A stretch of 64,000 nucleotides of DNA from assembly GCA_020725525.1 (NCBI GenBank), contig DYEX01000139.1, positions 1 through 64,000 on the forward strand, given 5' to 3'. The notes beneath the pieces were generated by a model. That model ran no database searches, was not told the origin of the DNA, and saw nothing but the letters and a program-made list of their open reading frames with translations. Origin of the DNA: Desulfovirgula sp. (GTDB lineage: Bacteria; Bacillota; Desulfotomaculia; Desulfotomaculales; Desulfovirgulaceae). Below are positions 1,186 to 19,832 of the stretch, one piece after another. Position 1 is the stretch's first letter, and every line of letters starts with the position of its first letter. The translations under genes and the position numbers were made by a program.

Positions 1186-2340
1186 ATGTCCGGTAAATAC
1201 GTAATCTCGCGGGAAGACTGGTCGCTGCACCGCAAAGGGGAGATCGACCGGCAGAGGCACCAGGAGAAGGTCCGGGAGGCCATCAAGAAAAACCTGGCGG
1301 ATGTGGTCAGTGAGGAAAGCATTATCATGTCCGATGGGAATAAAGTAATTAAAGTTCCCATCCGTTCGATAGAAGAATACCATTTCCGCTATGACCGGGG
1401 GAAAATGAAGCATGCCGGCCAGGGCGACGGCAAGAGCAAGGCAGGAGACGTACTGGGCAGCGATCCCCGGCAGGGGGGAGGAAAGGGCAAGGGCGGGGCC
1501 GGTGAGGAGCCGGGCGTGGATTATTATGAAGCGGACATCACCATTGATGAACTGGCCGAACTGATCTTTGAGGATCTGGGCCTGCCCAACCTGGAGCAGA
1601 AGAAAAAACCCGAACTGGCTTCCGAATCGGTGGAATTTAAAGATGTGCGCAAAATGGGCATTTCCAGCAACATCGACCGCAAGCGGACCATCTACGAGGC
1701 CATTAAACGCAATGCCCTTAAAGGTAAAAAGGGACTCTCCACCATCACCAGAGACGACCTGCGCTATAAAACCTGGGATGTAAGCTACAAATATGAGTCC
1801 AGCGCCGTGGTCATGGCCATGCTGGATACTTCAGGCAGTATGGGGCCCTTTGAGAAATACATCGCCCGCAGTTTCTTTTTCTGGATGGTGCGGTTTTTGC
1901 GCACCAAATACCAGAATGTGCAGATTGTTTTCCTGGCCCACCACGTGGAGGCCAGGGAATCCACGGAAGAGGAGTTTTTCACGAAGGGAGCCAGCGGCGG
2001 CACCCGCTGCTCATCGGTCTACAAACTGGCCCTGGAGATCATTGAAAACCGTTTCCCGCCCCAGGACTACAACATCTATGCCTTTCACTTTTCCGACGGC
2101 GACAACCTGGCCTCGGACAACGAAAACTGCGTCCGGCTGGTCAATGAGCTCTTGAAGGTGTGCAACCTGGTGGGTTACGGGGAAATCGAAGGGTCGTATT
2201 ATTATACCAGCACCCTGCGTTCGGCTTACAAGAAGATTAACGATCCCAAATTTGTTGCCATTACCATTAAGGACAAAAAAGACGTGTACCCGGCCCTGAA
2301 AAAATTTTTCAGCGGTGCGCCGGAGCAGGTGAAACTATAG
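1186..2340 (+). CDS. yhbH: Sporulation protein YhbH (DUF444)
   Basis: This 384-residue protein has the YhbH/DUF444 length and content: a basic, charged N-terminal region (residues 1-110, including a Gly-rich linker), then a von Willebrand A-like domain with the metal-site motif DTSGSMG near residue 210. In Bacillus YhbH is needed for efficient sporulation and is made with PrkA and SpoVR; its biochemical role is unknown. A GGGGGGAGGG ribosome binding site precedes the ATG. The gene is only 12 bases from prkA, so it is probably cotranscribed and may be affected by the break upstream. Its last codons overlap the stop of the convergent gene at 2335. No spoVR follows. Confidence 0.9.
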   Translation: MSGKYVISREDWSLHRKGEIDRQRHQEKVREAIKKNLADVVSEESIIMSDGNKVIKVPIRSIEEYHFRYDRGKMKHAGQGDGKSKAGDVLGSDPRQGGGKGKGGAGEEPGVDYYEADITIDELAELIFEDLGLPNLEQKKKPELASESVEFKDVRKMGISSNIDRKRTIYEAIKRNALKGKKGLSTITRDDLRYKTWDVSYKYESSAVVMAMLDTSGSMGPFEKYIARSFFFWMVRFLRTKYQNVQIVFLAHHVEARESTEEEFFTKGASGGTRCSSVYKLALEIIENRFPPQDYNIYAFHFSDGDNLASDNENCVRLVNELLKVCNLVGYGEIEGSYYYTSTLRSAYKKINDPKFVAITIKDKKDVYPALKKFFSGAPEQVKL

Positions 2341-3240
2341 CCGCTGGTGCTCGTGAACCATCGCCCGGCGCCACTTTTCCCGCAACACCCGGGCCAGCGC
2401 GCCGGCGAGAACCTCTTTGCCCCAACCTGCTTCCAGCGCTTCCAGCAGGACGGGAGCCGCCAGCCGCACCTCGTCGTGGGGACCGGGTAAAGCTACCAGA
2501 GTGGTCAATTCCACCTGACCTACCGCAATGCGCACACCGTCTTTCAAATGGCGTCCCCGTCCGGCGTGGAAATGCAGGATCCAGGGGGTTGCTGCCGAGG
2601 GGTCGAGCCGGGAAATGCTCTCCACCATCCAGTCTTTGTCCTCCGCACCAACCCCCCCGGTGGTGATAACCAGGCCGTAACCGTCTGCCACCGCCGACCG
2701 GAGGCGGCCGGTAATCAGATGCAGGTCGTCCGGCAGAATGCCTCCAAAACGCATCCGGTAACCGTGCTGCTCAAACAGGCCGATCAAATAAGGCGAATTT
2801 GTATCCTCAATCAGGCCTTCCTGCACTTCCCGGCCGGAGGCAAAAACCACCCCCCGCCGGGCCATACCGGCCCTCACCTGCTGCGCCAGGCGGGTGGAAC
2901 GCTCCAGTAATTCCTCCCGCCGTTCCGGCTCGGCGGCAATCAGGCCCAATATGCCCTGGGCGTGAACAGCCGTACTGGATGTGGCCCGCACCCCCGGTAC
3001 GCGATTCAGGGCTGAAAGCAGTTCTTTTTCCCGCCCCACAATTTGTTCAGCCATCACTGTGCGCCGCAGGATATCCAGCACCACCACCCGGTCCCGCACA
3101 TCTACCACCATCACGGCTTCGGCAGGTAATCCCAATACACGGGCGGTAACGGCGGCTATTTCGCCAAGATTTGCCCCGTGAAGTTCAATACCGGTAATCC
3201 AGAGCTCGGTTTTTTGCAGCAGGTCGAGTTCCAAGAACAA
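2335..3240 (-). CDS. MogA/MoaB-like molybdopterin-binding domain protein
   Basis: The C-terminal half of this 301-residue protein (about residues 140-290) looks like the MoCF/MogA molybdopterin-binding fold, with the typical TTGGVGAEDKD loop and a DDLHLI segment. The N-terminal 130 residues (ITGIELHGANLGEIAA and onward) are not a domain I recognise. Proteins of this superfamily bind or adenylate molybdopterin during Mo/W cofactor assembly; CinA is a distant relative. It lies downstream of MoaD and the tungsten-type AOR on the same strand, so a role in delivering W-pterin to AOR is plausible but inferred. It is convergent with yhbH, and the two stops overlap. Confidence 0.7.
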   Translation of the reverse strand: MFLELDLLQKTELWITGIELHGANLGEIAAVTARVLGLPAEAVMVVDVRDRVVVLDILRRTVMAEQIVGREKELLSALNRVPGVRATSSTAVHAQGILGLIAAEPERREELLERSTRLAQQVRAGMARRGVVFASGREVQEGLIEDTNSPYLIGLFEQHGYRMRFGGILPDDLHLITGRLRSAVADGYGLVITTGGVGAEDKDWMVESISRLDPSAATPWILHFHAGRGRHLKDGVRIAVGQVELTTLVALPGPHDEVRLAAPVLLEALEAGWGKEVLAGALARVLREKWRRAMVHEHQRL

Positions 3241-3365: not shown

Positions 3366-3605
3366 TTACCCTCCGCCGGCCGCCGGTAGGAAAACAACCT
3401 CATCTCCCTCAACCAGCCTGTGCTCTTCTCCCACCATTTTTCCATTAACGGAAACAAAGCGAACCTCATTCAAAGGCAGCCCCAAACGTTCCCGCAACTC
3501 TCTAATTGTCTCGCCTTCTTTTAGTTGAACAGGATGAAACTTGCTGAAGGCAGGGTAAGAAAAAGAAAGAATACCCAATAACTTTACCGTCACCTGCATT
3601 TCCAT
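3366..3605 (-). CDS. MoaD/ThiS-family sulfur carrier protein
   Basis: This 79-residue ubiquitin-like protein has the beta-grasp pattern and ends in a glycine run (PAAGGG), the C-terminal thiocarboxylate tail of MoaD/ThiS proteins. The start at 3605 is chosen because AAAAAAAGGAG lies seven bases before that ATG; upstream codons in frame belong to the leader. MoaD donates sulfur to build the dithiolene of molybdopterin. Its place between AOR (upstream) and a MogA-like protein (downstream) suggests a dedicated W/Mo-cofactor copy, as often seen beside archaeal and clostridial AORs. Which E1-like activator it uses is not visible here. Confidence 0.85.
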   Translation of the reverse strand: MEMQVTVKLLGILSFSYPAFSKFHPVQLKEGETIRELRERLGLPLNEVRFVSVNGKMVGEEHRLVEGDEVVFLPAAGGG

Positions 3606-3657
3606 CCAAACTCCTTTTTTTACGGGTAAGTGTTCAGTCAACTCGATTGAGGAACGG

Positions 3658-3753
3658 CCCAGCACTCACCACAATATGACTCTGCTCCCGGTGTTTCAGG
3701 TTTAATTGACAAATCAGGTTTTGGGAAGAACTAGTATTCCAGTGAGTGCTGGG
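3658..3753. repeat. 96-bp element with 12-bp inverted ends, copy A
   Basis: The element starts CCCAGCACTCAC and ends GTGAGTGCTGGG, a perfect 12-bp inverted terminal repeat. Its interior is clearly similar to copy C at 53991-54086, which has the same length of 96 bp, and weakly similar to copy B at 52542-52651. It has no coding capacity. It sits between moaD and AOR, directly before a second repeat type. It could be a MITE-like element or a REP-type palindrome. Confidence 0.7.
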
Positions 3754-3940: not shown

Positions 3941-5824
3941 TTAGTTGACCGCAAATTCCAGGCCCAGCTCCCTCAGTTTTTCAGGAGCAGGAAGGCCGGT
4001 CTGCCTGTCCCAACCCATGGCCTCATAATACGCATCCAGCATGGCATCCAGATTTTCCACCCTGGCCCCTGCGGAAGGACCATCCGGAATGGCCTGAGCA
4101 AACCGCCCGGGCAACTTATCATCCTTGCGGGTGAAACCTTCACGGGCGTTAAAACACCGCTTGAGAGTCCAGGAACGCTCTGCTGCCGTCATCAGTTCTG
4201 CTGCTGTTACGTCCCACCCGGTGAGGGCACTGACAATCTCGGCGTAAAGCTGCGGCGTGATGCAGCTGCCTTCCGTACCCCACGAGTAGAAGATACATGC
4301 CCCCAGGATTTCGCTGATTTCACCCTGTAACGCCACATACCGGTAAGCAACACCTTTCTGCTGCGATTCATCCTGCATCCCCGTGGGCGGCCAGGGCATA
4401 CCGAATTCTTTCATGCCGCAATCAAGTTGACCAAAGTCATAGGTGCTTGCCCAGTTGGGGTGCATATGACAGCCCCCCCGCGGAGAAACGGCATACTGCA
4501 CAGCGAGCACCTTAGATTCGGAACGCGGCTCGTGAGCCGGCAGTTCAAGTCCTTTCACATGGATAGCCGCCTCTTCGGCAGCAGGACCGAGCTGTTCAGC
4601 CATACGTTTTACACCCTGCGCCAGCAATGCACCAATTCCTTCCCGGTGGGCAATCTTTTCCACCAATTTGACCATTACTTCTCCATCGCCCCACCGCAAG
4701 GGCATTCCTTCCGTGTCCCTGTCAGTCAGCAACCCCTTTTCATAACACTCCATGGCAAAAGCAATGCTCATGCCCGTACTAATGGTATCCAAACCATAAA
4801 CATTACACAGGTAATTGCCTCTAATAATAGCCTCCAGGTCGGCAACCCCACAAATGGGCCCCAGCATATCTACAGTTTCGTATTCCGGACCCTCCATGGG
4901 AGGTGTAGCAAACTTTCCACTACCCACTGATGTATAACGCCCACAGGCGAAGCTGCAACCATAACAAGCCCGCCGTTTAATTTGATATTTCCGGTTGAGA
5001 AGCTCACCCGAAATCTGATCGGCCTTTTCAAAATGGGCCGTTTGGAAGTTCTTTGCCGGCAGGATTCCCAGGCTGTTGTTCAACGATACCAGGCCAACCG
5101 TACCCAGAGAAGGAATACTGCCGAAGGGGTAATTCTTCAACCACTGCTCTGCCTTCTCAACGGCCTCCGCAAATTCCTTCGGGCGGGCAACTTTAATACC
5201 GCCACGGCCATTCACCACAACCGCCTTTAAATTTTTACTGCCGAACACTGCTCCAATACCGCCGCGACCGGCAGCCCGTCCCCTGTCATTGATTAAAGCA
5301 GCATACAGAACCCCATTTTCGCCCGCCTGCCCTATGGCAGCCACAGAGATTTCGGGATCATCAAGTTCGCGAATCAGGGCATTCGTAGTTTCCTCAACGT
5401 TCAGCCCCCACAGGTGTTTGGCGGGTTTAATTTCCACCTCACCATCGCGGATATACACGTAGACGGGCTCTTCTGCCTTACCTTCAATGACCACAAAGTC
5501 AAAGCCCGCATACTTAAGCTTTGGACCAAAAGCCCCTCCCGACCGGGCCTGATTCCAGGTGCCGGTCAAAGGTGACTTGTAGCACACTTCGTAGCTTCCA
5601 CCGCTGGGACAAAGGGTACCGGTTACAGCACCGGTGGCCAGCACCACTTTAGCTTCCGGAGCCAGAGGATCAATGCCGCCGGGCATTTCCTGATAGAGAA
5701 GCCTGGCTGCATACCCGGTACAACCCATATACTTGCGCAGTTCGTTTTTATCCAGTTCTTCTACCTTATATTCACCACCGGTCAGGTTAATCCGCAGCAG
5801 CTTGCCGGCAAATCCGTACCACAT
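3941..5824 (-). CDS. Aldehyde ferredoxin oxidoreductase (tungsten AOR family)
   Basis: AOR oxidises aldehydes to carboxylic acids with reduction of ferredoxin, or does the reverse, in the cytoplasm. The 627-residue protein has the complete AOR length. It carries the N-terminal domain (WYGFAGKLLRINL), the pterin-binding loops, and the [4Fe-4S] cysteines in ACYGCSFACG (Cys287, 290, 294) with a fourth in LGACIFY near residue 508. A polyferredoxin gene lies 13 bases upstream, so the pair probably works as an AorAB-type complex. MoaD and a MogA-like gene follow. The nearby acetaldehyde dehydrogenase and alcohol dehydrogenase suggest acetaldehyde or another short aldehyde as substrate, which is inference. 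Confidence 0.93.
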   Translation of the reverse strand: MWYGFAGKLLRINLTGGEYKVEELDKNELRKYMGCTGYAARLLYQEMPGGIDPLAPEAKVVLATGAVTGTLCPSGGSYEVCYKSPLTGTWNQARSGGAFGPKLKYAGFDFVVIEGKAEEPVYVYIRDGEVEIKPAKHLWGLNVEETTNALIRELDDPEISVAAIGQAGENGVLYAALINDRGRAAGRGGIGAVFGSKNLKAVVVNGRGGIKVARPKEFAEAVEKAEQWLKNYPFGSIPSLGTVGLVSLNNSLGILPAKNFQTAHFEKADQISGELLNRKYQIKRRACYGCSFACGRYTSVGSGKFATPPMEGPEYETVDMLGPICGVADLEAIIRGNYLCNVYGLDTISTGMSIAFAMECYEKGLLTDRDTEGMPLRWGDGEVMVKLVEKIAHREGIGALLAQGVKRMAEQLGPAAEEAAIHVKGLELPAHEPRSESKVLAVQYAVSPRGGCHMHPNWASTYDFGQLDCGMKEFGMPWPPTGMQDESQQKGVAYRYVALQGEISEILGACIFYSWGTEGSCITPQLYAEIVSALTGWDVTAAELMTAAERSWTLKRCFNAREGFTRKDDKLPGRFAQAIPDGPSAGARVENLDAMLDAYYEAMGWDRQTGLPAPEKLRELGLEFAVN

Positions 5825-5837
5825 TAACCAGCACCTC

Positions 5838-6299
5838 CTATCTGATCCTTACTGCGTGGGCCACGGCCCAAATCTCCCGGCGCCTGGCCGCAGCTTTACC
5901 CGCATCCTCGTATCGAAGAGCACCATGCGGGCAGTGGCTGACACATGCCGGTGAACCGGAGCACAGGTCACACTTGGCCGCTACATCTGTTTCTTCATCA
6001 ACTCTGAGCACTCCATAGGGGCAAACCTTCACACAGGTACCGCAGCCGGTGCAAAGATTCTCATCCACCACCACCGCATCAGTAGCTCCATCCCGCTTGA
6101 GTGCTCCGGTGGGACAAACATCTATGCATAAGCCGCACTGCATGCATACCACGGGCACATCCACCGCCGGCTCCCGGCGTATCACATAAACATTGCTGCG
6201 GGAAGGATTTATTTCACCGTATTTAGTTAGCGAGCACCACATTTCACAGCGATGGCACCCGGTGCATAAAGACGGGTCCACTACCAGCACCTTAGACAA
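5838..6299 (-). CDS. Polyferredoxin with four [4Fe-4S] sites, AOR electron-transfer subunit (AorB-like)
   Basis: In 153 residues there are four cysteine quartets: CTGCHRCEMWC, CMQCGLCIDVCP, CTGCGTCVKVCP and CDLCSGSPACVSHCP. This is the layout of HycB/AorB-type electron-transfer subunits. It is directly upstream of AOR on the same strand and probably carries its electrons to or from ferredoxin or other carriers. No signal peptide or membrane segment is visible, so it should be cytoplasmic. A hairpin between it and the preceding alcohol dehydrogenase suggests that it starts or partly uncouples a transcript. Confidence 0.9.
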   Translation of the reverse strand: MSKVLVVDPSLCTGCHRCEMWCSLTKYGEINPSRSNVYVIRREPAVDVPVVCMQCGLCIDVCPTGALKRDGATDAVVVDENLCTGCGTCVKVCPYGVLRVDEETDVAAKCDLCSGSPACVSHCPHGALRYEDAGKAAARRREIWAVAHAVRIR

Positions 6300-6389: not shown

Positions 6390-7592
6390 TTAATACAGTT
6401 TATCCCCAACACGGCCTTCATAACTTCTGGTCAGCAGTTCTACTGCCGCCTCTCTGGTCATCGGCCGCTTGGACCAGCCGTAAAAAGCGGTAATCCATGG
6501 GCTCTCAACCATCATCCCGGCCAACATTGGAATATCTTCCTTCTTACCGAAGGGAGCCCAGGTGGTGGGAAGACCAACATCTTCCAGCAACTGTTTGACC
6601 GCTTGTACAGCAGCCTGAGCAGCCTGACGGACGCTCATGCCGGCGGTATTCTGGCCTAAAGCCGCGGCAATGCGGGCCAGTTTCTCCATGCAGTGCCCCA
6701 TGTTATACTCCATCGCGTAGGGCAGGGCCACCGCACAACCAACACCGTGCGGTACATGGTATACGGAACCTAAAGTATGCGCCAGAGCATGCCCCTCCAC
6801 GATACCCGGATCATTAAAAGCCATGCCGGCCATCATTGAAGCATAAGCCATCTTGACCCGGGCTTCCAGGTTATCCCCTTCGTAAACGGCCACCGGCAGG
6901 GCCTCTGCGATGAACTCAACCGCCTTTAGAGCAATTGCATCAGTAAGCGGGTTTTCCTGCCTGGCCATCATCGTCTCAATGGCATGCGACAGGGCGTCGG
7001 CACCCGTAGAAGCAGTAACTTTAGGCGGCATACTTACAGTCAGGGTAGGATCCACCAGTGCCATATCCGGCAGGATGGTCGGCGTGGCGAAGAAGCCTTT
7101 AATACCATCTTTAGCAAAGGTTACTACAGAATACATCGTACATTCGGTACCGGTTCCGGACGTGGTGGGAACGGCAATAATAGGCGCACCCTTTTTGGGG
7201 AAGGTGGTATTAACCAGATAATCCTCAGTTTTACCCGGCAGCGCCAGAAGCTGGGCAACCACCTTGGCGATGTCGATGGCACTGCCGCCACCCAGACCAA
7301 TTACGAAGCTGCCACCCTCTTTACGGGCAAATTCAGCTGCCTGGTCACAGACCACATTATCCGGCTCGGGTTTACCCTGATCAAAAACCGCTGCTTCAAA
7401 TCCATCCTTCTTGAGGGCCTGTACTACCCGGTCAGCAATCCCCGCCTGAGCCACCCCGGGATCAGTTACAATAACAGCCTTTCCGCTTATACCCATTTCC
7501 TTGATATACTGGCCAATGTTGTCTACGGCATTAACACCAAACACTACTTTTTGCGGAGTATAGTATTGAACCACTTTGAGCATTGGAAACAT
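6390..7592 (-). CDS. Iron-containing alcohol dehydrogenase
   Basis: This 400-residue protein is a group III (Fe-dependent) alcohol dehydrogenase, a family that interconverts alcohols and aldehydes or ketones with NAD(P)H. Visible signs are the nucleotide loop GGGSAIDIAK, the segment PTTSGTGTE and the metal-binding histidines in the HALAHTLGSVYHVPHG region. The start at 7592 is chosen because GGAGG lies ten bases before that ATG; a GTG three codons upstream is too close to it. It probably links ethanol or another short alcohol to the aldehyde enzymes around it. A palindrome matching the one in front of the ferredoxin/LarA operon lies about 160 bases upstream. Confidence 0.92.
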   Translation of the reverse strand: MFPMLKVVQYYTPQKVVFGVNAVDNIGQYIKEMGISGKAVIVTDPGVAQAGIADRVVQALKKDGFEAAVFDQGKPEPDNVVCDQAAEFARKEGGSFVIGLGGGSAIDIAKVVAQLLALPGKTEDYLVNTTFPKKGAPIIAVPTTSGTGTECTMYSVVTFAKDGIKGFFATPTILPDMALVDPTLTVSMPPKVTASTGADALSHAIETMMARQENPLTDAIALKAVEFIAEALPVAVYEGDNLEARVKMAYASMMAGMAFNDPGIVEGHALAHTLGSVYHVPHGVGCAVALPYAMEYNMGHCMEKLARIAAALGQNTAGMSVRQAAQAAVQAVKQLLEDVGLPTTWAPFGKKEDIPMLAGMMVESPWITAFYGWSKRPMTREAAVELLTRSYEGRVGDKLY

Positions 7593-7751
7593 AATTAGCA
7601 CAACCTCCTTGAACTTAATATTTTTAGTATTTTTCTTTTTCCCATGAGATTAAAACTCCACAGGCACTACCAGTAAATTACTCCTGCCTTCAGCCCCGCT
7701 GTCTTTTCTCAAAACTCACCCCCTCAGGTTTCTAAAGCCCAGTCAGTATTG

Positions 7752-8036: not shown

Positions 8037-9062
8037 TCAACCAGCCATAACCTGTTTATTCTGAGCCATCTCGTATGCCACGTCAATAATGTAGTCTTCC
8101 TGACCGCCTACAATCTTGCGGCGCCCCAGTTCCATCAAAATGTCCCGCGGATCCAGGCCAAACTTCTCCGCCGCCCGGTAGGTGTGGAGGAGGAAACTGG
8201 AGTACACGCCGGCATAACCCAGCATGATGGACGCATTATCGATCACCTGCGGGCGGCGCATCATGGGCTCCAGGACAGTGGCGGCATCCATGATCTTATA
8301 GAGATCCACACCTACCTCGCAGCCAACCTTTTTGAGGGCCGCCACCAGCACTTCGGTAGGCGCGTTACCTGCCCCGGCTCCCAGGCCGCGCAGGGTCCCA
8401 TCCACCACCGTGGCCCCGGCTTCCACTGCCGCCAGTGTATTGCCGATGGCCAGTCCCAGGTTGTTATGGGCATGGAAACCCACCGGAACCTTCAGGCAGG
8501 AGCGCACATAGCCGACCTTTTCCTTAACCTCCTGTGGGGTCATGGCCCCGGCCGAGTCCACCACGTAGACCACGTCCGCACCGTAACTTTCCATCAACCT
8601 GGCCTGCTCGGCAATCTTCTCCTTGTCTACGGTGTGGGACATCATCAGAAAGCCTACTACTTCCGTCCCCATCTCTTTGGCCAGGCCCATGTGCTCTTCC
8701 GATATGTCCGCCTCGGTAACGTGGGTGGCTATGCGGAAGACCTTTACCCCGGCTTTCACCGCCATCTGCATGTCCTTACAGGTGCCGATACCGGGCAGTA
8801 CCAGGGCCGCCAGCTTTGCCCGCTTGAGCACTGGAGCAACTGCGCGCAGGTACTCCTCGTCTGTAGCCGCGGCAAAGCCGTACTGGAATGAATAACCGGC
8901 CAGGCCGTCGCCGTGAGAAACTTCGATTACGTCCACGCCGGCCTCATCCAGGGCGGCCGCCACCCTGGCCATCTGTTCCGGGGTGAACTGGTGGGCCATG
9001 GCGTGCATCCCGTCCCGCAAGGTGGTGTCCATAATTCTGATCTCAGGCACAGCTTTCCACAT
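8037..9062 (-). CDS. 4-hydroxy-2-oxovalerate aldolase
   Basis: This enzyme (DmpG/MhpE/BphI family, HMGL-like TIM barrel) splits 4-hydroxy-2-oxovalerate into pyruvate and acetaldehyde. The 341-residue length is typical. The N-terminal motif [12 protein letters not shown] and the divalent-metal HxH in [10 protein letters not shown] (about residue 200) are present. Its start overlaps the end of the acetaldehyde dehydrogenase gene by 20 bases. In the known family the two proteins form a channelling complex, so translational coupling fits. It is the last gene of the hydratase-dehydrogenase-aldolase set. Confidence 0.93.
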
Positions 9063-9939
9063 CCTTCCGACTGTAAATACCCAGCAGGCGCATGGCCATC
9101 AACTCGCCCACCCGTGCAGCAGCCGAAGTCATAATGTCCAGGTTGCCCGCATAAGTGGGCAGGAAGTCCCCCGCCCCGGTCACTTCGATGATCGTAGTCA
9201 CCTTGTTTCCTTCCACCAGCGGCTCTACCCGGAGCCGGTAACCGGGAACGTACTCCTGAATGCGCCGTACCATGCCGAGCACTGCAGCACGAATTTTATC
9301 CTCATCCGGATGCTCCACCAGAGTGTAGATGGTGTTATGCATCATGATTGGGGGCTCGGCTGGATTAAGGATAATAATGGCCTTGCCCTTTTGAGCCCCG
9401 CCCACCACTTCCAGGGCCCTGGCCGTGGTCTCAGTAAACTCATCGATGTTCTGACGGGTTCCCGGCCCGGCGCTTTTACTTGAAATGGAAGAGACGATCT
9501 CTGCATATTGAACGCCTGCCACCCGGTTAATGGCTGCCACGATGGGCACGGTGGCCTGGCCACCGCAGGTGACCATGTTCACGTTCACGGCGTCCAGATG
9601 CTGATCTATGTTAACCACCGGGACCACGTAAGGACCCACCGCCGCCGGAGTGAGGTCGATGGCAATTTTGCCCGCCTCCCGCAGCAGGGGAGCATGTTTG
9701 AGATGGGGCCTGGCTCCGGTAGCGTCGAAGACAATCTTGATCTCCGGTTCCCGCAGTACTGCGCCGATCCCTTCGTGTGTGGCTTTAATGCCCAGTGATC
9801 TGGCCCGGGCCAGGCCCTCGGATTCCGGGTAAATTCCCACCATCATGGCTACTTCCACGTATTTGCTGCGCAACAGTTTGTACATCAGGTCGGTACCGAT
9901 GTTACCCGGCCCGACGATGGCCGCCTTTATTTTTTCCAA
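9043..9939 (-). CDS. Acetaldehyde dehydrogenase (acetylating)
   Basis: This 298-residue protein matches the DmpF/MhpF/BphJ family, which oxidises acetaldehyde with CoA and NAD to acetyl-CoA. The N-terminal Rossmann segment [16 protein letters not shown] and the catalytic cysteine in [10 protein letters not shown] (about residue 127) are visible. Together with the overlapping aldolase it converts hydroxy-oxovalerate to pyruvate and acetyl-CoA without releasing acetaldehyde. It is not the long AdhE or EutE type of fermentative bacteria, which makes a dedicated catabolic pathway likely. Confidence 0.94.
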
Positions 9940-9965: not shown

Positions 9966-10748
9966 TTAAGCATCTACAAATCTGGCGGTTACCGTGCCCA
10001 GGCGGTCGAAGGAAGCGCGGATCACCGAGCCGGGACTCACCGCCACTGCCTGGGTAAACGAACCGGAAAGCACCACCATACCCGGCTCCAGGCTCAACCC
10101 GTAACGGGCCACCGCGTTGGCCAGCCAGGCCACCGCCGCCGCCGGGTGGCCAAGGACCGCGGCTCCCGCCCCGGTAGCAAAGACTTCCCCATCCTTTTCC
10201 AGTACCAGCCCGAGCAGGCGCAAGTCCAGCCCTTCCACCGGCATTAACGTCCCACCCAGAATAATGGCCGCCGAGGAAGCATTGTCGGCAATGGTATCCT
10301 GAATTTTTATCTGCCAGTCCCTGATTCTACTGTCAATAATCTCTAATGCAGGCATCACTCCCGCCGTGGCCCGCAATACACCGGCCACGGTAACCCCGGG
10401 TCCGGTTAACCGCTCCCGCAGCACGAAAGCTATTTCTGCTTCTACTTTGGGCTGAATCAGCCTCGACAGGCGTACCGGATCACCCTCGAGCAGCACCATG
10501 GTGTCCAGAATATGACCATAATCCGGCTCATAAACTCCCAGCATCTGCTGCATGGCCCTGCTGGTCAGGCCAATCTTCATCCCCACCACCCTTTGGCCCC
10601 GGGCACATTTGCGTTCTATTACCTTCAATTGAATCTGATAGGCCGTGGGAATATCAATTTCCGGCCAGGCCGCTGTCAGCGGCTCGATGGGCATTCCAGT
10701 TTCTTCAGCCTGCAGTAACCGTTCGGCCCACTCTTCAATTTGCGGCAT
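9966..10748 (-). CDS. 2-oxopent-4-enoate hydratase / 4-oxalocrotonate decarboxylase family
   Basis: This 260-residue member of the fumarylacetoacetate-hydrolase-like MhpD/DmpE/DmpH group adds water to 2-hydroxypenta-2,4-dienoate or decarboxylates 4-oxalocrotonate. Family marks are the central [12 protein letters not shown] stretch, the acidic metal-binding EAEIAFVL and the ALEIIDSRI segment. Sequence alone does not separate hydratase from decarboxylase; followed by the aldolase and dehydrogenase genes, the hydratase role fits. It sits 55 bases after the NadC-like gene and 26 bases before the dehydrogenase, so it is very likely part of the same operon. Confidence 0.88.
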
Positions 10749-10803: not shown

Positions 10804-11655
10804 TTAGAAGGACATTATGTCCAGTACCGCACCCTGCGCCGGCCCCAGAACCTCAAAGCGCAGATCAGCCAGTGGCGCATCCAGCACCGAACGCCCAATA
10901 TCTATAATGTCCACATCCAGCTCTGCGATGGCCGGCAGATCCTCCCTGGTAATTCCCCCGGAAAAAGCAAGGCGCACTCCCTGCCGCCATCCACGCCCGC
11001 GCAGGTACCCGGCCACCCGGGTCACATCTTCCACGCAGCCGGTGTCCACCATTAAAACGGCAGCTCCATTGATTACCGCCTGGGCAGCCTCATTGGTAAT
11101 GTCACCCCACTCACCGCGCAGCTGGATGACCTTTTCACCGGGCAGAGCCGCTACCGCCTGCAGGGTGCCGGAGATACCTCCAAACATACGGATATAGTTT
11201 TTATCCAGGTAGATGAAGGGTTCATCGAGGATCCGGGTGGCCACACCGCCCACTGCCGCGGCCCGGCGCAAATTCTGCCGCCAGGGCAAAGGAAGCTTCT
11301 TCCATCCCCCACACACCACCCGGATACGGCCGGGAAGCATCTCACGGAACGAACGGGCGGCGGTGGCCACGCCGGAAGCCTTGCCGATCCAACCCGGCAC
11401 CCGATCTTCGGCCACGGCCAGGGCCATGGCCGGCCCGGTAAGAGTGAGTACCGCCTGACCGGCCGGCACACTCATTCCCTCCCGCACCTGACTGCGTACT
11501 TCCAGCCCCAGAGAACGAGCCTCATCGATGCTTTCGCTCAGACCGGCCACCACCGCCGGCCGGGTAAAAACCACCCCGGCCTGGAAGATACGATTTTCCA
11601 TCCCTTTGAAGATGGAATGACGTATATCACCGGGAGGGAGAATGTGCTTCTCCAT
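10804..11655 (-). CDS. NadC-like (quinolinate phosphoribosyltransferase superfamily) protein of unknown function
   Basis: The 283 residues follow the NadC/ModD fold: an N-terminal sandwich (VREGMSVPAGQAVLTLTGPA), the SGVATAARSF helix, and a barrel with LMVDTG and FSGGI. Comparing with NadC from memory, one lysine (Lys120), the barrel arginine (Arg141) and the lysine in YLDKNYIRMFGG (Lys152) are kept. The usual DTRKTTPG motif reads GGWKKLPL, and the quinolinate-binding His of the GGGHNHR region is lost. This suggests another substrate. The start at 11655 is set by AGGAGG nine bases upstream. It follows the LarA-like gene by 23 bases. True NadC for NAD synthesis is unlikely, because nadA and nadB are absent here. 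Confidence 0.65.
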   Translation of the reverse strand: MEKHILPPGDIRHSIFKGMENRIFQAGVVFTRPAVVAGLSESIDEARSLGLEVRSQVREGMSVPAGQAVLTLTGPAMALAVAEDRVPGWIGKASGVATAARSFREMLPGRIRVVCGGWKKLPLPWRQNLRRAAAVGGVATRILDEPFIYLDKNYIRMFGGISGTLQAVAALPGEKVIQLRGEWGDITNEAAQAVINGAAVLMVDTGCVEDVTRVAGYLRGRGWRQGVRLAFSGGITREDLPAIAELDVDIIDIGRSVLDAPLADLRFEVLGPAQGAVLDIMSF

Positions 11656-11678
11656 TTGAGCCAACCTCCTGCCACTCC

Positions 11679-13121
11679 TTAACAAATCTTAATTCGAGAC
11701 GGATCGATGCCCCTCTGCTTCAACCATTTGGGAAGCAGCTCCCCGTCTACCCGGCGCGAAACGAGAGGTGCTTTCTGCAGCAGGTATTCACCCAGGGAAC
11801 GGCTGACGTTCAAAGCTCCTGAAGCACCGTCAAAGGCGAGGATCTTATCCGTACCCGCAACCTGCTTGGCAAAACGCACTGCCGTGTCCAAATCCTCCGC
11901 CAGCAACGTGTGTTTGGTGTAGCTGAGGTTCTGCGGGTCCCGGTCAAGCAGCTCCGCCTGTTCCCGGCCCACTACAATGGTCGGGATGTGCTCGGTAAAG
12001 AAGGCGCTGGGATACCCACCCCAGGCATAGTTATGGATAACTACTTTAATCGCCGGGTTTACCGGCGGCACCCCTTCGATCAGCGGCCGCCCGTCTTCAC
12101 CGTAGAAGGCCTCCGTATACCAGGTGTACGGCGGCAGCGGATCGTCCAGGTCGAAAAGGTCCCGGTTGGCCCCGGCAAAGTTGGCGAAAATGACCCCCGC
12201 CGCAAATACATACGGCACCGGGCTGGGGAAATCCAGAATGGTGATGGCCTCGTCAATCTCACCCAGCAGGGTCATCATCTTGCCGTAATCCCGGCAGCCC
12301 AAATAAGTAACCCGGTCGTTGAGCGCATAGAGATCGTTGTCCGCGTCCACCCCCACCACCCCGCTGGGCGACATCATCAGAAATACGGCGCAGGCAAATT
12401 TCTCCTGGACAAAGGGAGAATCAAAGATTGCCCTGGCCACAAAGTTGGCCGCCCGTGGGCCCAGGTTCTGGTGATAAGTGGAGCGGGTTTCTATGCGCGC
12501 ATAGGACATGCCGAAGGGTTTTACCGCCCGGTCCACCTGACGGTGGAAGTGCACTTCCCGCACGTCACTGTTGTGGGCGTGGATGATCCACCGGGCATCG
12601 TATATTTTTTTGATGCCGTAAAGAGTGCCGATTTCGGTCTCGATGGCAACCCCTTCATCCACCGGAGCCACGCCGGCGGCCTTGCCTTCATAGTATTCGT
12701 CCAGGCCAAATGCCTTAATGTATTCTTCACTCTCCCGGAAACGCAGCCCCACACCTACCCGCAGGCGTATATCCGTACAGCCCGTGCGTTCCCGCACCAC
12801 GTCCCGGATGGTCCTGAGCATCTCGGCATATGGTGCTCCACCCAGCAAAGTGAAACCGTGGTGTGAACCCAGCACATTTACCGGGTCGCCGGGTTTGATC
12901 ATGCTCAGGTCCACTTTTTCCATCTGCTTCCGGGTGGCTTCCCGGATCACCTCCAGGCCGTTTTCACCCGGGTAAATAACCGGCGCTGCATCAGGGAAAA
13001 GATCCCTCACCAGCACGGAAACCATGTCCGGCAGCTCTGCGGCCCGCTTGCGGACCAGTTCGGGTGCTACCCCGTACTGGGAACGACGCGGCGGCAGGGG
13101 TTTAATCGGTGCGCGCAACAT
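11679..13121 (-). CDS. LarA-like (DUF2088, nickel-pincer-nucleotide superfamily) protein
   Basis: I recognise this 480-residue protein as a divergent LarA-family member. LarA lactate racemase uses a nickel-pincer nucleotide bound through one lysine, with two histidine ligands. In L. plantarum LarA these are His174, Lys184 and His200; here His191, Lys201 and His217 have exactly the same spacings (10 and 16) in a similar context. The preceding region (TDIRLRVGVGLRFRESEEYIKAFG) parallels the LarA segment with His108, but that His is replaced, as is the DHTRP motif. A different hydroxy-acid substrate or reaction is therefore likely. A GGAGGG ribosome binding site precedes the ATG. larB, larC and larE are not in the window. 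Confidence 0.6.
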   Translation of the reverse strand: MLRAPIKPLPPRRSQYGVAPELVRKRAAELPDMVSVLVRDLFPDAAPVIYPGENGLEVIREATRKQMEKVDLSMIKPGDPVNVLGSHHGFTLLGGAPYAEMLRTIRDVVRERTGCTDIRLRVGVGLRFRESEEYIKAFGLDEYYEGKAAGVAPVDEGVAIETEIGTLYGIKKIYDARWIIHAHNSDVREVHFHRQVDRAVKPFGMSYARIETRSTYHQNLGPRAANFVARAIFDSPFVQEKFACAVFLMMSPSGVVGVDADNDLYALNDRVTYLGCRDYGKMMTLLGEIDEAITILDFPSPVPYVFAAGVIFANFAGANRDLFDLDDPLPPYTWYTEAFYGEDGRPLIEGVPPVNPAIKVVIHNYAWGGYPSAFFTEHIPTIVVGREQAELLDRDPQNLSYTKHTLLAEDLDTAVRFAKQVAGTDKILAFDGASGALNVSRSLGEYLLQKAPLVSRRVDGELLPKWLKQRGIDPSRIKIC

Positions 13122-13734
13122 TTATTTCCCTCCTTTCACCGGTTTCTACCAGCGAATCCAGCAGTTTGCGGTCTTCATCGAAGTAAAACCCGCGTTGGGC
13201 ATATTTTTTCTTAACCTCTTCCGGAATATCCCAAACCGTAGGCGTCAAGCCATACCACTGGTAACCTCCGGCAGGCCGCTCCGGTGCAATTCCCGCTGCA
13301 TGCAGCAACCGCAATACCGGCTGGATACACTCCACCTTGCACCCGGTACGTACACCTGTGCGCCGGGAGATCTCTTCCGGAGATTTCGCTCCCTTGAGTA
13401 CCGCCGCCGCCACTTCCCCGGCCCTGGTGGCCGTACAGTAACAGATAATCTGTTTGGGATGCAGGTGCGCCTTCCGGCAGAGATCATTGACGGCAGCCAT
13501 ATCTACCCCCGCCAGGCTCTCCTGTACTACCCGCGACTGTTCAAGGTGGGCCATGGTGATGGCCATTTCCGGACAGCGCTGCTCGCAGTTGGCACAGCCC
13601 AGACAGTTTTCCGGGTCTACCACTGCTTTTTTATTTTCCACCTTAATGGCCAGCACCGGACACACCCGTTCACAGCGCGTGCAGCCCTTACATTTATCCA
13701 CATCTACTACCGCGTATAAGGTTACTGCGCGCAC
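13102..13734 (-). CDS. Ferredoxin with two [4Fe-4S] sites and a BFD-like C-terminal domain
   Basis: This 210-residue protein opens with two cluster motifs, CKGCTRCERVCP and CLGCANCEQRCP. A BFD-like [2Fe-2S] candidate region follows (CYC about 31 residues before GCKVEC), then a tail of about 70 residues I do not recognise. The GTG start at 13734 is chosen because GGGGGG lies six bases before it; the earlier ATG lies inside an operator-like palindrome. It is the first gene of the operon and overlaps the LarA-like gene by 20 bases. It is probably a redox partner or sensor for the pathway; no catalytic domain is visible. Confidence 0.8.
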   Translation of the reverse strand: MRAVTLYAVVDVDKCKGCTRCERVCPVLAIKVENKKAVVDPENCLGCANCEQRCPEMAITMAHLEQSRVVQESLAGVDMAAVNDLCRKAHLHPKQIICYCTATRAGEVAAAVLKGAKSPEEISRRTGVRTGCKVECIQPVLRLLHAAGIAPERPAGGYQWYGLTPTVWDIPEEVKKKYAQRGFYFDEDRKLLDSLVETGERREINVARTD

Positions 13735-13750
13735 GGTCCACCCCCCTTTG

Positions 13751-13765
13751 TTTGATATTATCAAA
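13751..13765. promoter_or_regulatory. Putative IclR operator at the ferredoxin/LarA operon
   Basis: TTTGATATTATCAAA is a perfect 7+1+7 palindrome, 17 bases before the GTG start of the operon and 89 bases from the end of the iclR gene. It has the same pattern as 7752-7766. The neighbouring IclR protein is the obvious candidate to bind both. Confidence 0.55.
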
Positions 13766-13853: not shown

Positions 13854-14669
13854 CTAAATTTTGCCGTAACCATTCAGCTCGACACCCGCGCCCAACTGCC
13901 GGGAAATTTCCCCGGCCACCTTCTTAAGGGACCCGGCAATGCGGGACATTTTCTCTTCCGTCATTCGTGACGCCGGTCCGGAAACGCTGATTGCCCCCAC
14001 CGGGTATTGACCATAACCGATAAGGGGTGCCGCTACGCAGCGCAGCCCCTCTTCAATTTCTTCCCGGTCGTAGGACACCCCTTCTTCCCGGATCCGTGCC
14101 AGCTCCGCACTCAATTCTTCCCAGGTGGTGATAGTGTTGGCGGTAAATCTGGGCAGCCCCCGCTTTTTAACAATGGCCCGCACCTTTTCTTCGGGAAGAT
14201 AGGCCAGAATTGCCTTCCCCACACCGGTACAATGGGCAGGCAGCCGGCTTCCGATGCGGGAGACCATGCGGATGGATTGCGGGCTGTCAATTTTGTCCAC
14301 GTAAACCACCTGGCCGTCGTCCATAACCACCAGGTGCACTGTTTCCCCATGTTCATTCACCAGTTGCTGCAAATAAGGAGAGGCAATTTCACGCAGATCA
14401 CAGTGCTCGAGAAAAGCCCCACTCAGGGCTAAAACTCGATAACCCAGCCGGTACCGGCCCGTTTTGATCTCCTGGTGCACATAGTTGTGTTTAACCAGTG
14501 TTTGCAGTAATCCAAAGGCAGTACTTTTATGAAGCCCCAGTTCCCGGCTGAGCTCAGAAAGGGAAGCCGGTCCACGACACAGGTACTCCAGGATCTTGAT
14601 TGCCCTTTCCACTGATTGTATGGTGTTTATTTCCTGCGCGGTTCCGCTTCTGCTCCTGGTTCTTGCCAC
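13854..14669 (-). CDS. IclR-family transcriptional regulator
   Basis: This 271-residue protein has the N-terminal winged helix-turn-helix (residues about 17-80, IKILEYLCRGPASLSELSRE) and the C-terminal IclR effector domain (residues 90-260, with HCTGVGKAIL and GVSYDREEIEEGLRCVAAP). IclR proteins control catabolic operons for small organic acids and aromatics. It lies on the same strand just upstream of the ferredoxin/LarA operon, and two TTTGAYA palindromes nearby are likely targets. The ligand is unknown and is probably a pathway substrate. Confidence 0.93.
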   Translation of the reverse strand: MARTRSRSGTAQEINTIQSVERAIKILEYLCRGPASLSELSRELGLHKSTAFGLLQTLVKHNYVHQEIKTGRYRLGYRVLALSGAFLEHCDLREIASPYLQQLVNEHGETVHLVVMDDGQVVYVDKIDSPQSIRMVSRIGSRLPAHCTGVGKAILAYLPEEKVRAIVKKRGLPRFTANTITTWEELSAELARIREEGVSYDREEIEEGLRCVAAPLIGYGQYPVGAISVSGPASRMTEEKMSRIAGSLKKVAGEISRQLGAGVELNGYGKI

Positions 14670-14799: not shown

Positions 14800-16557
14800 T
14801 TAGCCACACTCTATTTGATACCGTTTCAATTTCTTGTACAGGCCGGCCCGGGATATACCCAGCAGTTGGGCCGCCTGCCGCTTGTTGCCTTTGGTCGCCG
14901 CCAGGGCCTCTAAAATGGCTTCCCTTTCCGCCTCTTCCACCAGCCCGGGCAGGCCGCTCTGGCCGGCCTGCCGCCCCCCCGGCCGGCCGGCCTTTTGCAG
15001 GTAGAGGGGCAGGTGTTTTTTCTGGATCACGGTGCCGTCCAGCACATTGTAGGCCCGTTCCAGTACATTTTCCAGTTCCCGCACATTGCCCGGCCAGTGG
15101 TGGTTAAAGAATATCCCCATGACCTCCGGGGAAACCCCGGTTACCCGCTGTCCGAACTGGCGGTTGAAATGCTTAATGAAATGTTCCACCAGGAGTTCTA
15201 AATCATCAAGGCGTTCCCGCAGGGGAGGAATATTTAAGGTGACCACGTTGATGCGGTAGTATAAGTCTTCCCGGAACCTTCCCCTGCCGATCAGTTCTTC
15301 CAGGTTCTGGTTGGTAGCCGCAATGACCCGCACGTCCACCCGGCGGGGCCGGGTATCCCCCAGGCGTTCAATTTCCTTTTCCTGCAAAACCCGTAACAGT
15401 TTGGCCTGCATGGACAGGGGCATATCCCCAATTTCATCTAAAAAAATGGTTCCCCCGTGGGCCAGCTCGAACTTGCCCGGCTGCCCGCCTTTGCGGGCGC
15501 CGGTGAAGGCCCCTTCCACATAACCGAATAACTCCGACTCCAGGAGGTTTTCGGGCACCGCCGCGCAGTTGACCTTGATAAATGGACCCTTGCTGCGCAG
15601 GCCCTCAGTATGCAGGGCGTGGGCAAAAAGTTCCTTGCCGGTGCCGCTCTCCCCCAGGATGAGGACCGTGGAACTGGTCATGGCCACCCGGCGGGCAGTT
15701 GCCTTAACGGCTTCAAATTGTTTGTTGCGGCCGATAATCTGGTCAAAGCTGAACTTGCTGCGGTGAACCCGTTCCAGCTCGCCTTTATAGTAATCCAGCT
15801 CGCTTTTGAGGTGGCGGATCTTTTTGATCAGGGCGTATAACTGTTCCACATCCCGAAAGGCCACCACTCCCAGGGCCCCCACAATTTCCCCGTCCCGGAT
15901 CAGGGGCACCCGGTTGGCGATAACTTCATGGCCGTTGAGGTTGCCCAGATATCCATATTCCGCTTCCCCCGTCTCCATGGCCCGGGGGAAGATGGGCTTG
16001 CTCTCCCCGTACACTTCATAAACGTTTTTACCGATAATTTCTTCGGGGGTTTTGTTAAAGAAGCTGGCAAAATTATGGTTGGCCATGGTAATCACGTAAT
16101 TCCGGTCTATGGCCACGATCCCGTCACTGGACAGATCCAGAATTTGTTCCAGTAAATTTTTCAGCTCCCGGATGCGGGCGTTATCATTTGATAACTCGTC
16201 AATGATATTCTGGATTTCGTTAATATTTTGAAATTCGGATATGGCACCCACTATTTCCCCGTTACGCCAGATGGGAGTGCGGTTGACCAGGTAAACCCCG
16301 TCTTTTAACTGCAGGCGGCGTCCCAGCTGCGGCCGCCCGTCCTTGAGCACCTCCAGCAGTGGCGTGCCCGGGAAAAATTCGTTAATGTGGCGTCCAATCA
16401 GTTCCTCTCTTGGCATTTCCAGGTAGCGGGCGAACTGGGGGCTGCAGTAGATGATCTCCCCGGCCCTGTTTACAGCGACAACATTGCTGGCCAGTGAATC
16501 CAAAATGTCACCAAGCGCCGGCGTCCATGTTTCTGCCGGACTGACTTTCCTGCCCAA
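14800..16557 (-). CDS. Sigma-54-dependent activator with two PAS domains
   Basis: The 585 residues comprise two PAS sensor domains (about 15-120 and 135-245), a coiled linker, the AAA+ activator domain with Walker A GESGTGKE and the sigma-54 contact loop GAFTGA (about residues 300-370), and a Fis-type helix-turn-helix at the end (RQAAQLLGISRAGLYKKLKR). It remodels RNA polymerase with sigma-54 at -24/-12 promoters. Such a promoter lies upstream of the thiolase operon at 21161-21177, so that operon is its likely target. PAS domains suggest a cytoplasmic ligand or redox signal. Tandem terminators separate it from the operon. Confidence 0.95.
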   Translation of the reverse strand: MGRKVSPAETWTPALGDILDSLASNVVAVNRAGEIIYCSPQFARYLEMPREELIGRHINEFFPGTPLLEVLKDGRPQLGRRLQLKDGVYLVNRTPIWRNGEIVGAISEFQNINEIQNIIDELSNDNARIRELKNLLEQILDLSSDGIVAIDRNYVITMANHNFASFFNKTPEEIIGKNVYEVYGESKPIFPRAMETGEAEYGYLGNLNGHEVIANRVPLIRDGEIVGALGVVAFRDVEQLYALIKKIRHLKSELDYYKGELERVHRSKFSFDQIIGRNKQFEAVKATARRVAMTSSTVLILGESGTGKELFAHALHTEGLRSKGPFIKVNCAAVPENLLESELFGYVEGAFTGARKGGQPGKFELAHGGTIFLDEIGDMPLSMQAKLLRVLQEKEIERLGDTRPRRVDVRVIAATNQNLEELIGRGRFREDLYYRINVVTLNIPPLRERLDDLELLVEHFIKHFNRQFGQRVTGVSPEVMGIFFNHHWPGNVRELENVLERAYNVLDGTVIQKKHLPLYLQKAGRPGGRQAGQSGLPGLVEEAEREAILEALAATKGNKRQAAQLLGISRAGLYKKLKRYQIECG

Positions 16558-16660
16558 GCCCGTCCCACCTCACCGGAGGCCTTCTATTTTCGTTTTACAC
16601 CTGATTACTTTTTTCTACACATCCTCATCAGATCCTTCCTTAATTTTAAAAATCAAAAAA

Positions 16661-16682
16661 AGCAAAAGCCGGCGCCGCCGGC
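16661..16682 (-). terminator. Second of two tandem terminators
   Basis: The GCCGGC arms around GCC (16668-16682) form a hairpin followed on the minus strand by TTTTGCTTTTTTTG. With the stronger hairpin before it, it insulates the sigma-54 regulator gene from the CoA-transferase operon. Confidence 0.65.
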
Positions 16683-16723
16683 AAAAAAAGGGCCCGGAGC
16701 CGCTGTTTCTTTTCCCGGGCCCG
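16683..16723 (-). terminator. Rho-independent terminator of the thiolase/CoA-transferase operon
   Basis: GGGCCCGG and CCGGGCCC arms (16690-16697 and 16715-16722) form a perfect stem, followed on the minus strand by seven T. It lies about 70 bases after the CoA-transferase stop. Confidence 0.85.
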
Positions 16724-16789
16724 TCCTTCAAATCAGATCTGTCGGTAAACTTCTTCACCGCGCCGGGCATCCCGCCGGTACCCGGCTGT

Positions 16790-17608
16790 TCACCTGCCCA
16801 GGAAGAGTCCTTCCGGGTCAATGACATTGCGCAGCAGGTACAGCTCATGATAGGTGGGCGGTGGAGTTTCGCCCCGGCAGCGGCTGACATCCAGGTCGAA
16901 ACCCACGTTATTTTCTACGTCTTCTACGGTAACGCCCGGATGGACGGTATCCAGGTACATCTCCCCCGTTTCCTCATCGAAACGGAAGACGGCCATGCTG
17001 GTGATTACCGCCACCGGCCCACCCCGGAAGGCCGAACCAAAGGCCTCCCGGCGCGTGACCCATTCACCACCGGGCCACTTCTTGACCCGCCAGCCCGGCG
17101 AGGTGACGTAATCCACCTGTTCTTTAAAACGACGTTTCTCCTGCACCATTATAAACACGGTTCGCCGGGCCAGGGAGTTGATGTCCGGGTTGCCGCCCGA
17201 ACCGGTGAGGCGCACCGCGGGATGGTAATAGTCACCGCCGATGGCGGTGGTGTTTACGTTGCCATACCTGTCAATTTCCGCCCCGCCCAGAAAGGCCAGG
17301 TCCACCACACCCCGCTGCAGCTGGCCGAAAACGTCAAACAGACCCGAGGACACCGAAGCCCTGTATTCGCAGCGGGCGTCGCCCACGGAAGAAGGCAGGT
17401 GTGCGGGGCGGCCGTCCATGGAGCCGGCCTCGTAAATGATCGAAGCCCGCGGCGCACCGGTTTTCTGGGCCAGGGTCACCGCCAGCATGGGCAGCCCGGT
17501 GCCGGCAAACACGACCTCGCCGTCCTGGATTTCCCGCGCACCGGCCACGGCCAGAAGTTCTATCAGCTTGTATTCCCCGGGCTGAGCCGGACTGTGGTTG
17601 TTACGCAT
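16790..17608 (-). CDS. CoA-transferase, beta subunit (glutaconate CoA-transferase B-like)
   Basis: This 272-residue family I CoA-transferase subunit has the GctB pattern. The active-site glutamate is in IIYEAGSMDG, and the LGGAEIDRYGNVNTT and GSGGNPDINSLARR loops follow. These enzymes move CoA from an acyl-CoA to a free acid. It ends the operon and lies 5 bases after the alpha subunit. The related IpdB ring-cleaving hydrolases lack the glutamate, so a true transferase is favoured. The actual acid is not predictable; an acetoacetate-, glutaconate- or branched-acid-type substrate would fit the thiolase and dehydrogenase upstream. Confidence 0.85.
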   Translation of the reverse strand: MRNNHSPAQPGEYKLIELLAVAGAREIQDGEVVFAGTGLPMLAVTLAQKTGAPRASIIYEAGSMDGRPAHLPSSVGDARCEYRASVSSGLFDVFGQLQRGVVDLAFLGGAEIDRYGNVNTTAIGGDYYHPAVRLTGSGGNPDINSLARRTVFIMVQEKRRFKEQVDYVTSPGWRVKKWPGGEWVTRREAFGSAFRGGPVAVITSMAVFRFDEETGEMYLDTVHPGVTVEDVENNVGFDLDVSRCRGETPPPTYHELYLLRNVIDPEGLFLGR

Positions 17609-17613
17609 GTTTC

Positions 17614-18594: not shown

Positions 18595-18662
18595 GAAAAA
18601 TCCCTCCTTAAAATCCTTTGGGCCGGCTTAAAGATTTACAGGCATACAGCCGTGGTGCAGGT

Positions 18663-19811: not shown

Positions 19812-19832
19812 TGTAATTCAGCTCCTCGCTTT

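Follow-up and report, generated by a model that had tools for sequence, protein, structure and literature searches.

A gene cluster around a LarA-fold protein of Desulfovirgula sp. probably serving the anaerobic degradation of 2-furoate

The nickel-pincer cofactor of lactate racemase (LarA) moves hydride (PMC12611868); the enzyme binds it through Arg75, Lys184 and His200 and uses Asp72, His108, His174 and Lys298 for catalysis (PMC7583248). Nickel-pincer enzymes characterised so far are racemases and epimerases (PMC7583248, PMC11770544), and one group of LarA homologues, the single-histidine group, is known to lack His174 (PMC12611868). In the window analysed here, a stretch of 64,000 nucleotides from Desulfovirgula sp. 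(assembly GCA_020725525.1, contig DYEX01000139.1, positions 1 to 64,000), three consecutive minus-strand open reading frames (ORFs) encode a ferredoxin, a 480-amino-acid LarA-like protein and a NadC-like protein; the first two are named Fd220 and LarX in the following. A preliminary description of these three genes proposed either an enzyme that has a cofactor-supply step of its own or a pathway for a pyridine or hydroxy acid. It missed that the cluster is larger, running on the minus strand from an IclR-family regulator to a MoCF-domain protein (14669 down to 2335), and that the MoCF gene (2335..3240) is a third strict partner. The neighbouring genes indicate a different kind of substrate, a five-carbon furan acid (2-furoate) that is converted into 2-hydroxypentadienoate. 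Two described pathways are related to such a route: the Dmp/Mhp lower meta-cleavage pathway, and the aerobic furoate pathway (HmfABCDE), in which furoyl-CoA is converted to 2-oxoglutarate.

We propose that the cluster degrades 2-furoate anaerobically, that LarX and its ferredoxin open the ring reductively, and that the NadC-like and MoCF proteins act on the cofactor. Taken as a whole, this proposal is in our judgement reasonably probable. The genes, the predicted fold, the conserved residues, the co-occurrence and the link to HmfF are shown, and the assignment of the pathway is strong; the reaction of LarX, the path of the electrons and what the NadC-like and MoCF proteins do are inferred. Directly after the NadC-like gene, and like all features of the window given below on the minus strand, are genes for a 2-hydroxypenta-2,4-dienoate hydratase of the DmpE/MhpD family (9966..10748; TIGR03220, 4e-91, 304.8 bits, the cut-off of 408.8 not being reached), an acylating acetaldehyde dehydrogenase (AcDH, DmpF; 9043..9939; TIGR03215, 470 bits, above the cut-off of 282) and a 4-hydroxy-2-oxovalerate aldolase (DmpG; 8037..9062; TIGR03217, 520 bits, above the cut-off of 286). 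As the aldolase and AcDH exceed their equivalog cut-offs, the intermediate should be 4-hydroxy-2-oxovalerate, derived from a C5 2-hydroxydienoate. The formulae balance, since 2-furoate (C5H4O3) plus two hydrogens, with the C5-O bond broken, equals 2-hydroxypenta-2,4-dienoate (C5H6O3). The Dmp/Mhp pathway possesses the same hydratase, aldolase and acylating acetaldehyde dehydrogenase; it is fed by an extradiol dioxygenase, whereas the LarX cluster would be fed by anaerobic ring opening. A nicotinate or pyridine pathway was considered and rejected, because a C5 dienoate is what the downstream enzymes require and because HmfF, described below, is the linked decarboxylase.

This set of genes is conserved around LarX. 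Scanning genome contigs yielded 94 LarX relatives, of which the best 80 loci (given L-numbers below) were analysed. Neighbours were counted by tblastn, as ORF-based counts were too low owing to overlapping reverse ORFs. Among the 40 well-flanked loci, which have at least 6.5 kb on either side of LarX, the hydratase is found in 39, the NadC-like protein and the MoCF protein in 38 each, the aldolase in 33, AcDH in 32, a BenE-type carrier in 25, an M24-family protein in 20 and any of larB, larC and larE in 20. Occurrence was also surveyed in 113 genomes of the window's class, Desulfotomaculia, where LarX, the NadC-like protein (E below 1e-20) and MoCF are present in the identical 13 genomes from 9 genera. 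The hypergeometric probability for one such pair is 3e-17, a figure that assumes independence among genomes that are in fact related. The functional tie between LarX and the NadC-like protein suggested by the preliminary description is thus borne out.

The link to furans comes from the decarboxylase HmfF and from enzymes of aldehyde oxidation. UbiD proteins encoded in L015, L018, L027, L030, L036, L037, L042 and L066 are HmfF-like, and in a search of the PDB the entry 6h6v scored 580 bits with that of L042 and 638 bits with that of L030, the next family reaching 194 and 226 bits. Entry 6h6v is PtHmfF (PMC8988006), the furan-2,5-dicarboxylate decarboxylase / 2-furoate carboxylase of Pelotomaculum thermopropionicum (PMC6644310). 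Across the class, 8 of the 113 genomes encode an HmfF that scores 600 bits or more; all eight are among the 13 that possess LarX and none among the 100 that do not (2.5e-9, again assuming independence; next match 331 bits). Seven of the eight have it no farther than about 20 kb from LarX. In one of the eight (G094), HmfF is identical to 6h6v over all 444 aligned residues, so that G094 is either the organism from which the structure came or a strain very close to it, and its genome encodes the HmfF of known structure 20 kb from LarX. The gene order in G094 is IclR, ferredoxin, LarX, NadC-like, hydratase, AcDH, aldolase, alcohol dehydrogenase, MoCF, ferredoxin and aldehyde:ferredoxin oxidoreductase (AOR), followed by further genes, another AOR, an alcohol dehydrogenase and HmfF. 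The UbiD proteins of L078 were rejected as HmfF, being not HmfF-like.

The window itself carries the aldehyde-oxidising part of this arrangement. It encodes an iron-containing alcohol dehydrogenase (6390..7601; Pfam Fe-ADH), whose substrate we take to be furfuryl alcohol or furfural, a four-cluster ferredoxin (5838..6299; Pfam Fer4 families) and an AOR/WOR protein proposed to oxidise furfural to 2-furoate (3941..5824; 96% identical to the homologue in L079). The homologue of this last protein in L003 matches AFOR_N/AFOR_C of Pfam. The four-cluster ferredoxin, whose gene adjoins the AOR gene in the window and in L002, L003, L011, L077 and L079, is likely the small subunit of the tungsten enzyme, and a small MoaD-like ORF (3366..3665), read from the sequence, is probably for the tungsten cofactor. 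AOR-family tungsten enzymes convert furfural to furoic acid with a micromolar Km and ferredoxin as acceptor (PMC9424855). The proposed route shares its entry compounds and HmfF/UbiX with the aerobic furoate pathway; unlike the latter it is oxygen-free and redox-balanced, and ends in the DmpE/F/G lower pathway. The CoA ligase and the Mo furoyl-CoA hydroxylase on which the aerobic pathway depends are outside the conserved set, genes of these kinds being present in a few loci. The physiology of furfural-degrading sulfate reducers is known from older work, and a search of the open-access literature turned up neither this cluster nor an anaerobic route for furoate.

A pathway of the same kind with another substrate, such as pyrrole-2-carboxylate, 5-hydroxymethyl-2-furoate, thiophene-2-carboxylate or furoyl-CoA, is in our view unlikely, though it is the alternative that survives best. 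The C5 dienoate would also arise from pyrrole-2-carboxylate plus two hydrogens once ammonia is lost, 40 of the 80 loci encode a creatinase-like M24 hydrolase, and a few loci have AMP-binding and Mo-hydroxylase genes. Against this, neither the CoA-ligase nor the Mo-hydroxylase genes belong to the core, and it is HmfF, not the pyrrole-2-carboxylate decarboxylase HudA, that is linked (638 versus 118 bits for the protein of L030). A histidine is reported to be key to furan specificity (PMC7976604); it appears from the sequences to be that of the EHLLLG motif, which is kept in 8 of 9 HmfF-like proteins.

With the lower pathway and the entry steps assigned, LarX and the ferredoxin are the sole conserved proteins left, and the ring step would fall to them. 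LarX (11679..13121), the proposed 2-furoate ring-opening reductase, matches no Pfam or NCBIfam model (for Pfam, including PF09861 Lar_N, even at E = 10) and no PDB sequence by phmmer. An hhalign comparison of 67 LarX proteins with seven LarA proteins is not significant, and the score of pairwise global alignment of LarX with LarA is within the noise of shuffled sequences. The predicted structure gives a different picture: in searches of the AlphaFold (AF2) model (pLDDT 87.7, pTM 0.90) against solved structures with Foldseek and VIA-align, the top matches are eleven LarA-type entries (Z 18-20 over 311-358 residues), including lactate racemase, malate racemase and the single-histidine homologues 9q3j/9q3k, and the next fold reaches 6.7. 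On this model LarX is clearly a two-domain LarA-fold protein, a very distant relative of lactate racemase. Membership of the LarA superfamily is absent by profile and present by predicted fold.

The residues that would hold the cofactor are conserved. His191, Lys201 and His217 are invariant in 67 of 67 aligned homologues (62-98% identity), at the LarA spacing of 10 and 16 as previously described, and correspond by position to His174, Lys184 and His200 of LarA. At the DHTRP position (the Asp72/Arg75 region) LarX has SHHGF, and at the GFHRP position (His108) it has GLRFR, so that among Asp72, Arg75, His108 and His174 the equivalent of His174 alone is kept. The reported absence of DHTRP therefore stands, while the reported loss of the catalytic histidine holds for His108 and not for His174, which is retained as His191. 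LarX is in this respect the reverse of the single-histidine homologues. Arg127, which is invariant, likely takes the place of His108. LarX shares with the LarA superfamily (COG3875/PF09861) the fold, a lysine at the position that tethers the nickel-pincer nucleotide, a histidine at the nickel-ligand position, one catalytic histidine, and the presence of larB/larC/larE in the genome and, in many cases, in the locus; it differs in having no detectable sequence similarity, in the replaced DHTRP and His108 regions, and in its strict ferredoxin, NadC-like and MoCF partners and its furan catabolic context. The family is highly conserved, with no intermediates toward LarA among the relatives found.

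A LarA homologue with ENQFR in place of DHTRP is encoded near LarX in four loci (L064:10757-12043, L074:15208-16500, L047:6200-7498 and L035:5315-6703), and Lar_N was found in that of L064, the one of the four tested. It is a candidate for a second nickel-pincer enzyme in the pathway or for a racemase acting on a side product.

Fd220 (13102..13764; start uncertain, 13734 also possible) contains two 4Fe-4S motifs and a BFD [2Fe-2S] domain, both above the Pfam cut-offs (4Fe-4S and Fer2_BFD), in agreement with its earlier naming as a BFD-type ferredoxin, and ends in a conserved C-terminal WYG...GFYF tail. It lies directly upstream of LarX in all 74 loci with room for it. In two deltaproteobacterial metagenome-assembled genomes (L075:8031-9989 and L080:7905-9989) the homologue is the C-terminal part of a fusion of 652-694 amino acids, encoded upstream of LarX, whose other part is a GltD/NfnB-like NAD(P)H FAD oxidoreductase (Pyr_redox_2/Fer4_20). 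These fusions indicate that Fd220 is an electron carrier that pyridine nucleotides can feed; we propose it as the electron donor of LarX. Both the adjacency and the fusions are as expected if LarX is a reductase.

The proposed route would begin with the oxidation of furfuryl alcohol and furfural to 2-furoate by the alcohol dehydrogenase and the tungsten AOR; in relatives, UbiX/HmfF would supply 2-furoate from furan-2,5-dicarboxylate, and the BenE-type carrier probably imports it. In LarX the nickel-pincer nucleotide would be attached to Lys201, with the nickel bound by His217. Fd220 would pass two electrons to LarX, which would deliver hydride to the furan ring, likely at C5, to give a C2 carbanion/enolate stabilised by the carboxylate, and a 1,4-elimination in which the ring oxygen leaves C5 would release 2-hydroxypenta-2,4-dienoate. 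The hydratase would then form 4-hydroxy-2-oxovalerate, which the aldolase and AcDH would convert to pyruvate and acetyl-CoA. The AcDH step would give back the two electrons spent on the ring, making the conversion of furoate to pyruvate and acetyl-CoA redox-neutral. LarX is suited to the ring step because the nickel-pincer cofactor already moves hydride in LarA, and the new element would be that the electrons come from outside the substrate. Tentatively, and with a confidence somewhat short of even, LarX may be the first net-reducing nickel-pincer enzyme, using ferredoxin electrons to break a heteroaromatic ring with a modified cofactor made by the NadC-like and MoCF proteins, and may form the missing anaerobic furan route in bacteria and archaea, including gut Oscillospiraceae.

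LarX might instead be a nickel-pincer enzyme of the ordinary kind, a racemase of 2-hydroxy acids or a hydride-shifting isomerase, acting on a side product or a later intermediate, with the ferredoxin serving repair or cofactor loading and another protein of the cluster opening the ring. The characterised LarA homologues are all racemases or epimerases (PMC7583248, PMC11770544), and the equivalent of His174 is retained. However, those of Asp72, Arg75 and His108 are missing, the inferred route contains no chiral 2-hydroxy acid, no other co-conserved oxidoreductase is present to open the ring, and the strict pairing with the ferredoxin and its fusion to an NAD(P)H oxidoreductase would be left unexplained. 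We regard this explanation as improbable, a little more so than a change of substrate.

Several points weigh against the proposed furoate reductase. Homology of LarX and LarA is not demonstrable by sequence, and the correspondence of their residues is drawn from spacing, invariance and the order of secondary structure. The hydratase scores below every equivalog cut-off of NCBIfam. The window's own genome has no HmfF match at the 1e-80 threshold used for it, so that its link to furans rests on relatives and on the AOR and alcohol dehydrogenase, and its pathway would begin with furfuryl alcohol, furfural or furoate; the UbiD protein of L077 is HmfF-like at a distance only. We know of no net-reductive nickel-pincer enzyme, and activation of a furan by a carboxylate alone is chemically demanding.

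The NadC-like protein (10804..11685) has the type II phosphoribosyltransferase fold, with QRPTase_N (31.9 bits) and QRPTase_C (49 bits) both above the Pfam cut-offs, and scores 84.5 bits with the nadC equivalog of NCBIfam, below its cut-off of 198.4. Alignments with 3gnn and within the family, read with what we take to be the roles of the quinolinate-binding residues of NadC, show DTRKT changed to GxWKK (TRK to (G/A)WK), LIKDNH changed to YLDKNY, and the histidine of NHR lost. The alterations in the quinolinate site noted in the preliminary description are thus confirmed, and family-specific residues (MVDTG, GxWKK and YLDKNY) stand where NadC holds quinolinate. Like NadC and ModD, the protein retains both QRPTase domains, the lysine of TRK(T) and one ring-carboxylate arginine; unlike them, it occurs only alongside LarX and is joined to MoCF in a single ORF in three loci (L006, L027 and L037). 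The MoCF protein (2335..3240; MoCF_biosynth detected in a homologue) matches, as a whole AF2 model, the MoeA/MogA/CinA fold, matches that most likely stem from its MoCF domain, and has an N-terminal part of its own.

NadC binds and makes a pyridinium mononucleotide, and MoCF proteins such as MogA adenylylate a cofactor phosphate. That the pair prepares or modifies the nickel-pincer cofactor has, in our estimate, roughly even odds. Acting jointly, the two proteins could make or adenylylate a variant pyridinium nucleotide; hypothetically, they may supply LarB with a variant NaAD-like precursor or turn the pincer into a dinucleotide, and a changed cofactor would fit the replaced Asp72/Arg75 region of LarX. 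The cofactor-supply step of the preliminary description is a possible reading, with added weight from the fusions and the strict co-occurrence; its pyridine or hydroxy-acid pathway is not supported. A catabolic role, in which the substrate ring is the target of both proteins and LarX carries out just one of several modifications of that ring, would also account for two strict and sometimes fused partners, and LarB does not normally need them to supply the nickel-pincer precursor. But phosphoribosylating a carbon source would cost PRPP at each turnover, and both folds bind nucleotides, a better fit to work on a cofactor; we consider such a role quite improbable.

LarB, LarC and LarE, identified as NCBIfam equivalogs, are all encoded in the window's own genome, above the cut-offs and on other contigs (LarB on C54, LarC on C54 and C2, LarE on C62), as the preliminary description had wished to see checked. 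Their presence at genome level is weak evidence, because larB (89 of 113) and larE (91 of 113) are common in the class and found in all 13 LarX-positive genomes (p = 0.04); co-location alone counts. Within the LarX locus, larB/larC/larE or nickel transporters occur in many phyla. A 28-kb cluster in G055 joins larE, larB, larC, M24, NicO, UbiX, IclR, NadC-like, MoCF, hydratase, AcDH, aldolase, ferredoxin, LarX, BenE, CbiM-Q-O, MFS, MoaD-like, AOR, alcohol dehydrogenase and HmfF, the nickel transporters being NicO and CbiM. That LarX is an unrelated anaerobic enzyme family with a LarA-like fold, no nickel-pincer cofactor and coincidental neighbours, as the undetectable sequence similarity and the commonness of larB and larE might suggest, is very improbable given the invariant lysine and histidine at LarA spacing and the nickel-pincer or nickel-transport genes in the locus across so many phyla.

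The best 80 LarX relatives (62-98% identical) come from Clostridia, Deltaproteobacteria, a spirochaete, Bacilli, Archaeoglobus, Thermoproteota and Borrarchaeota. A family of this breadth, gut Oscillospiraceae included, has no Pfam or NCBIfam model. If the proposal is right, a reductase would add a reaction class to the nickel-pincer cofactor, enzymologists would gain a defined target with a guessed substrate, and it would be explained how strict anaerobes live on furfural, furandicarboxylate derived from hydroxymethylfurfural, and furoate, compounds that matter in biomass hydrolysates and heated food.

Some loci deviate from the common arrangement. Those of Oscillibacter and Flavonifractor plautii (L058, L063 and L068) contain LarX, BenE and M24, L063 also larB/larC/larE, with no aldolase/acetaldehyde dehydrogenase pair adjacent. 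The M24 protein, creatinase/Xaa-Pro-dipeptidase-like (e.g. L040:12825-13937) and present in gut bacteria among others, could for example hydrolyse a furoyl conjugate. Xanthine-dehydrogenase-type Mo-hydroxylase genes are found in the clusters of L028, L031 and L074 (Halobacteroidaceae, Moorella sulfitireducens), where they perhaps replace AOR in aldehyde oxidation. L015, L018, L030 and L075 have, instead of BenE, a TRAP transporter (DctP/Q/M) with AOR and alcohol dehydrogenase, possibly a furan-acid system. In the window, the region directly upstream (14800-21086) encodes a PAS/sigma54-type activator, a two-subunit CoA-transferase, an acyl-CoA dehydrogenase and another ORF, by their sequences a separate catabolic set. 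The first gene upstream in the cluster itself is that of the IclR-family regulator (13854..14669; Pfam IclR_C/HTH_IclR), a homologue of which is found in 53 of the 80 loci.

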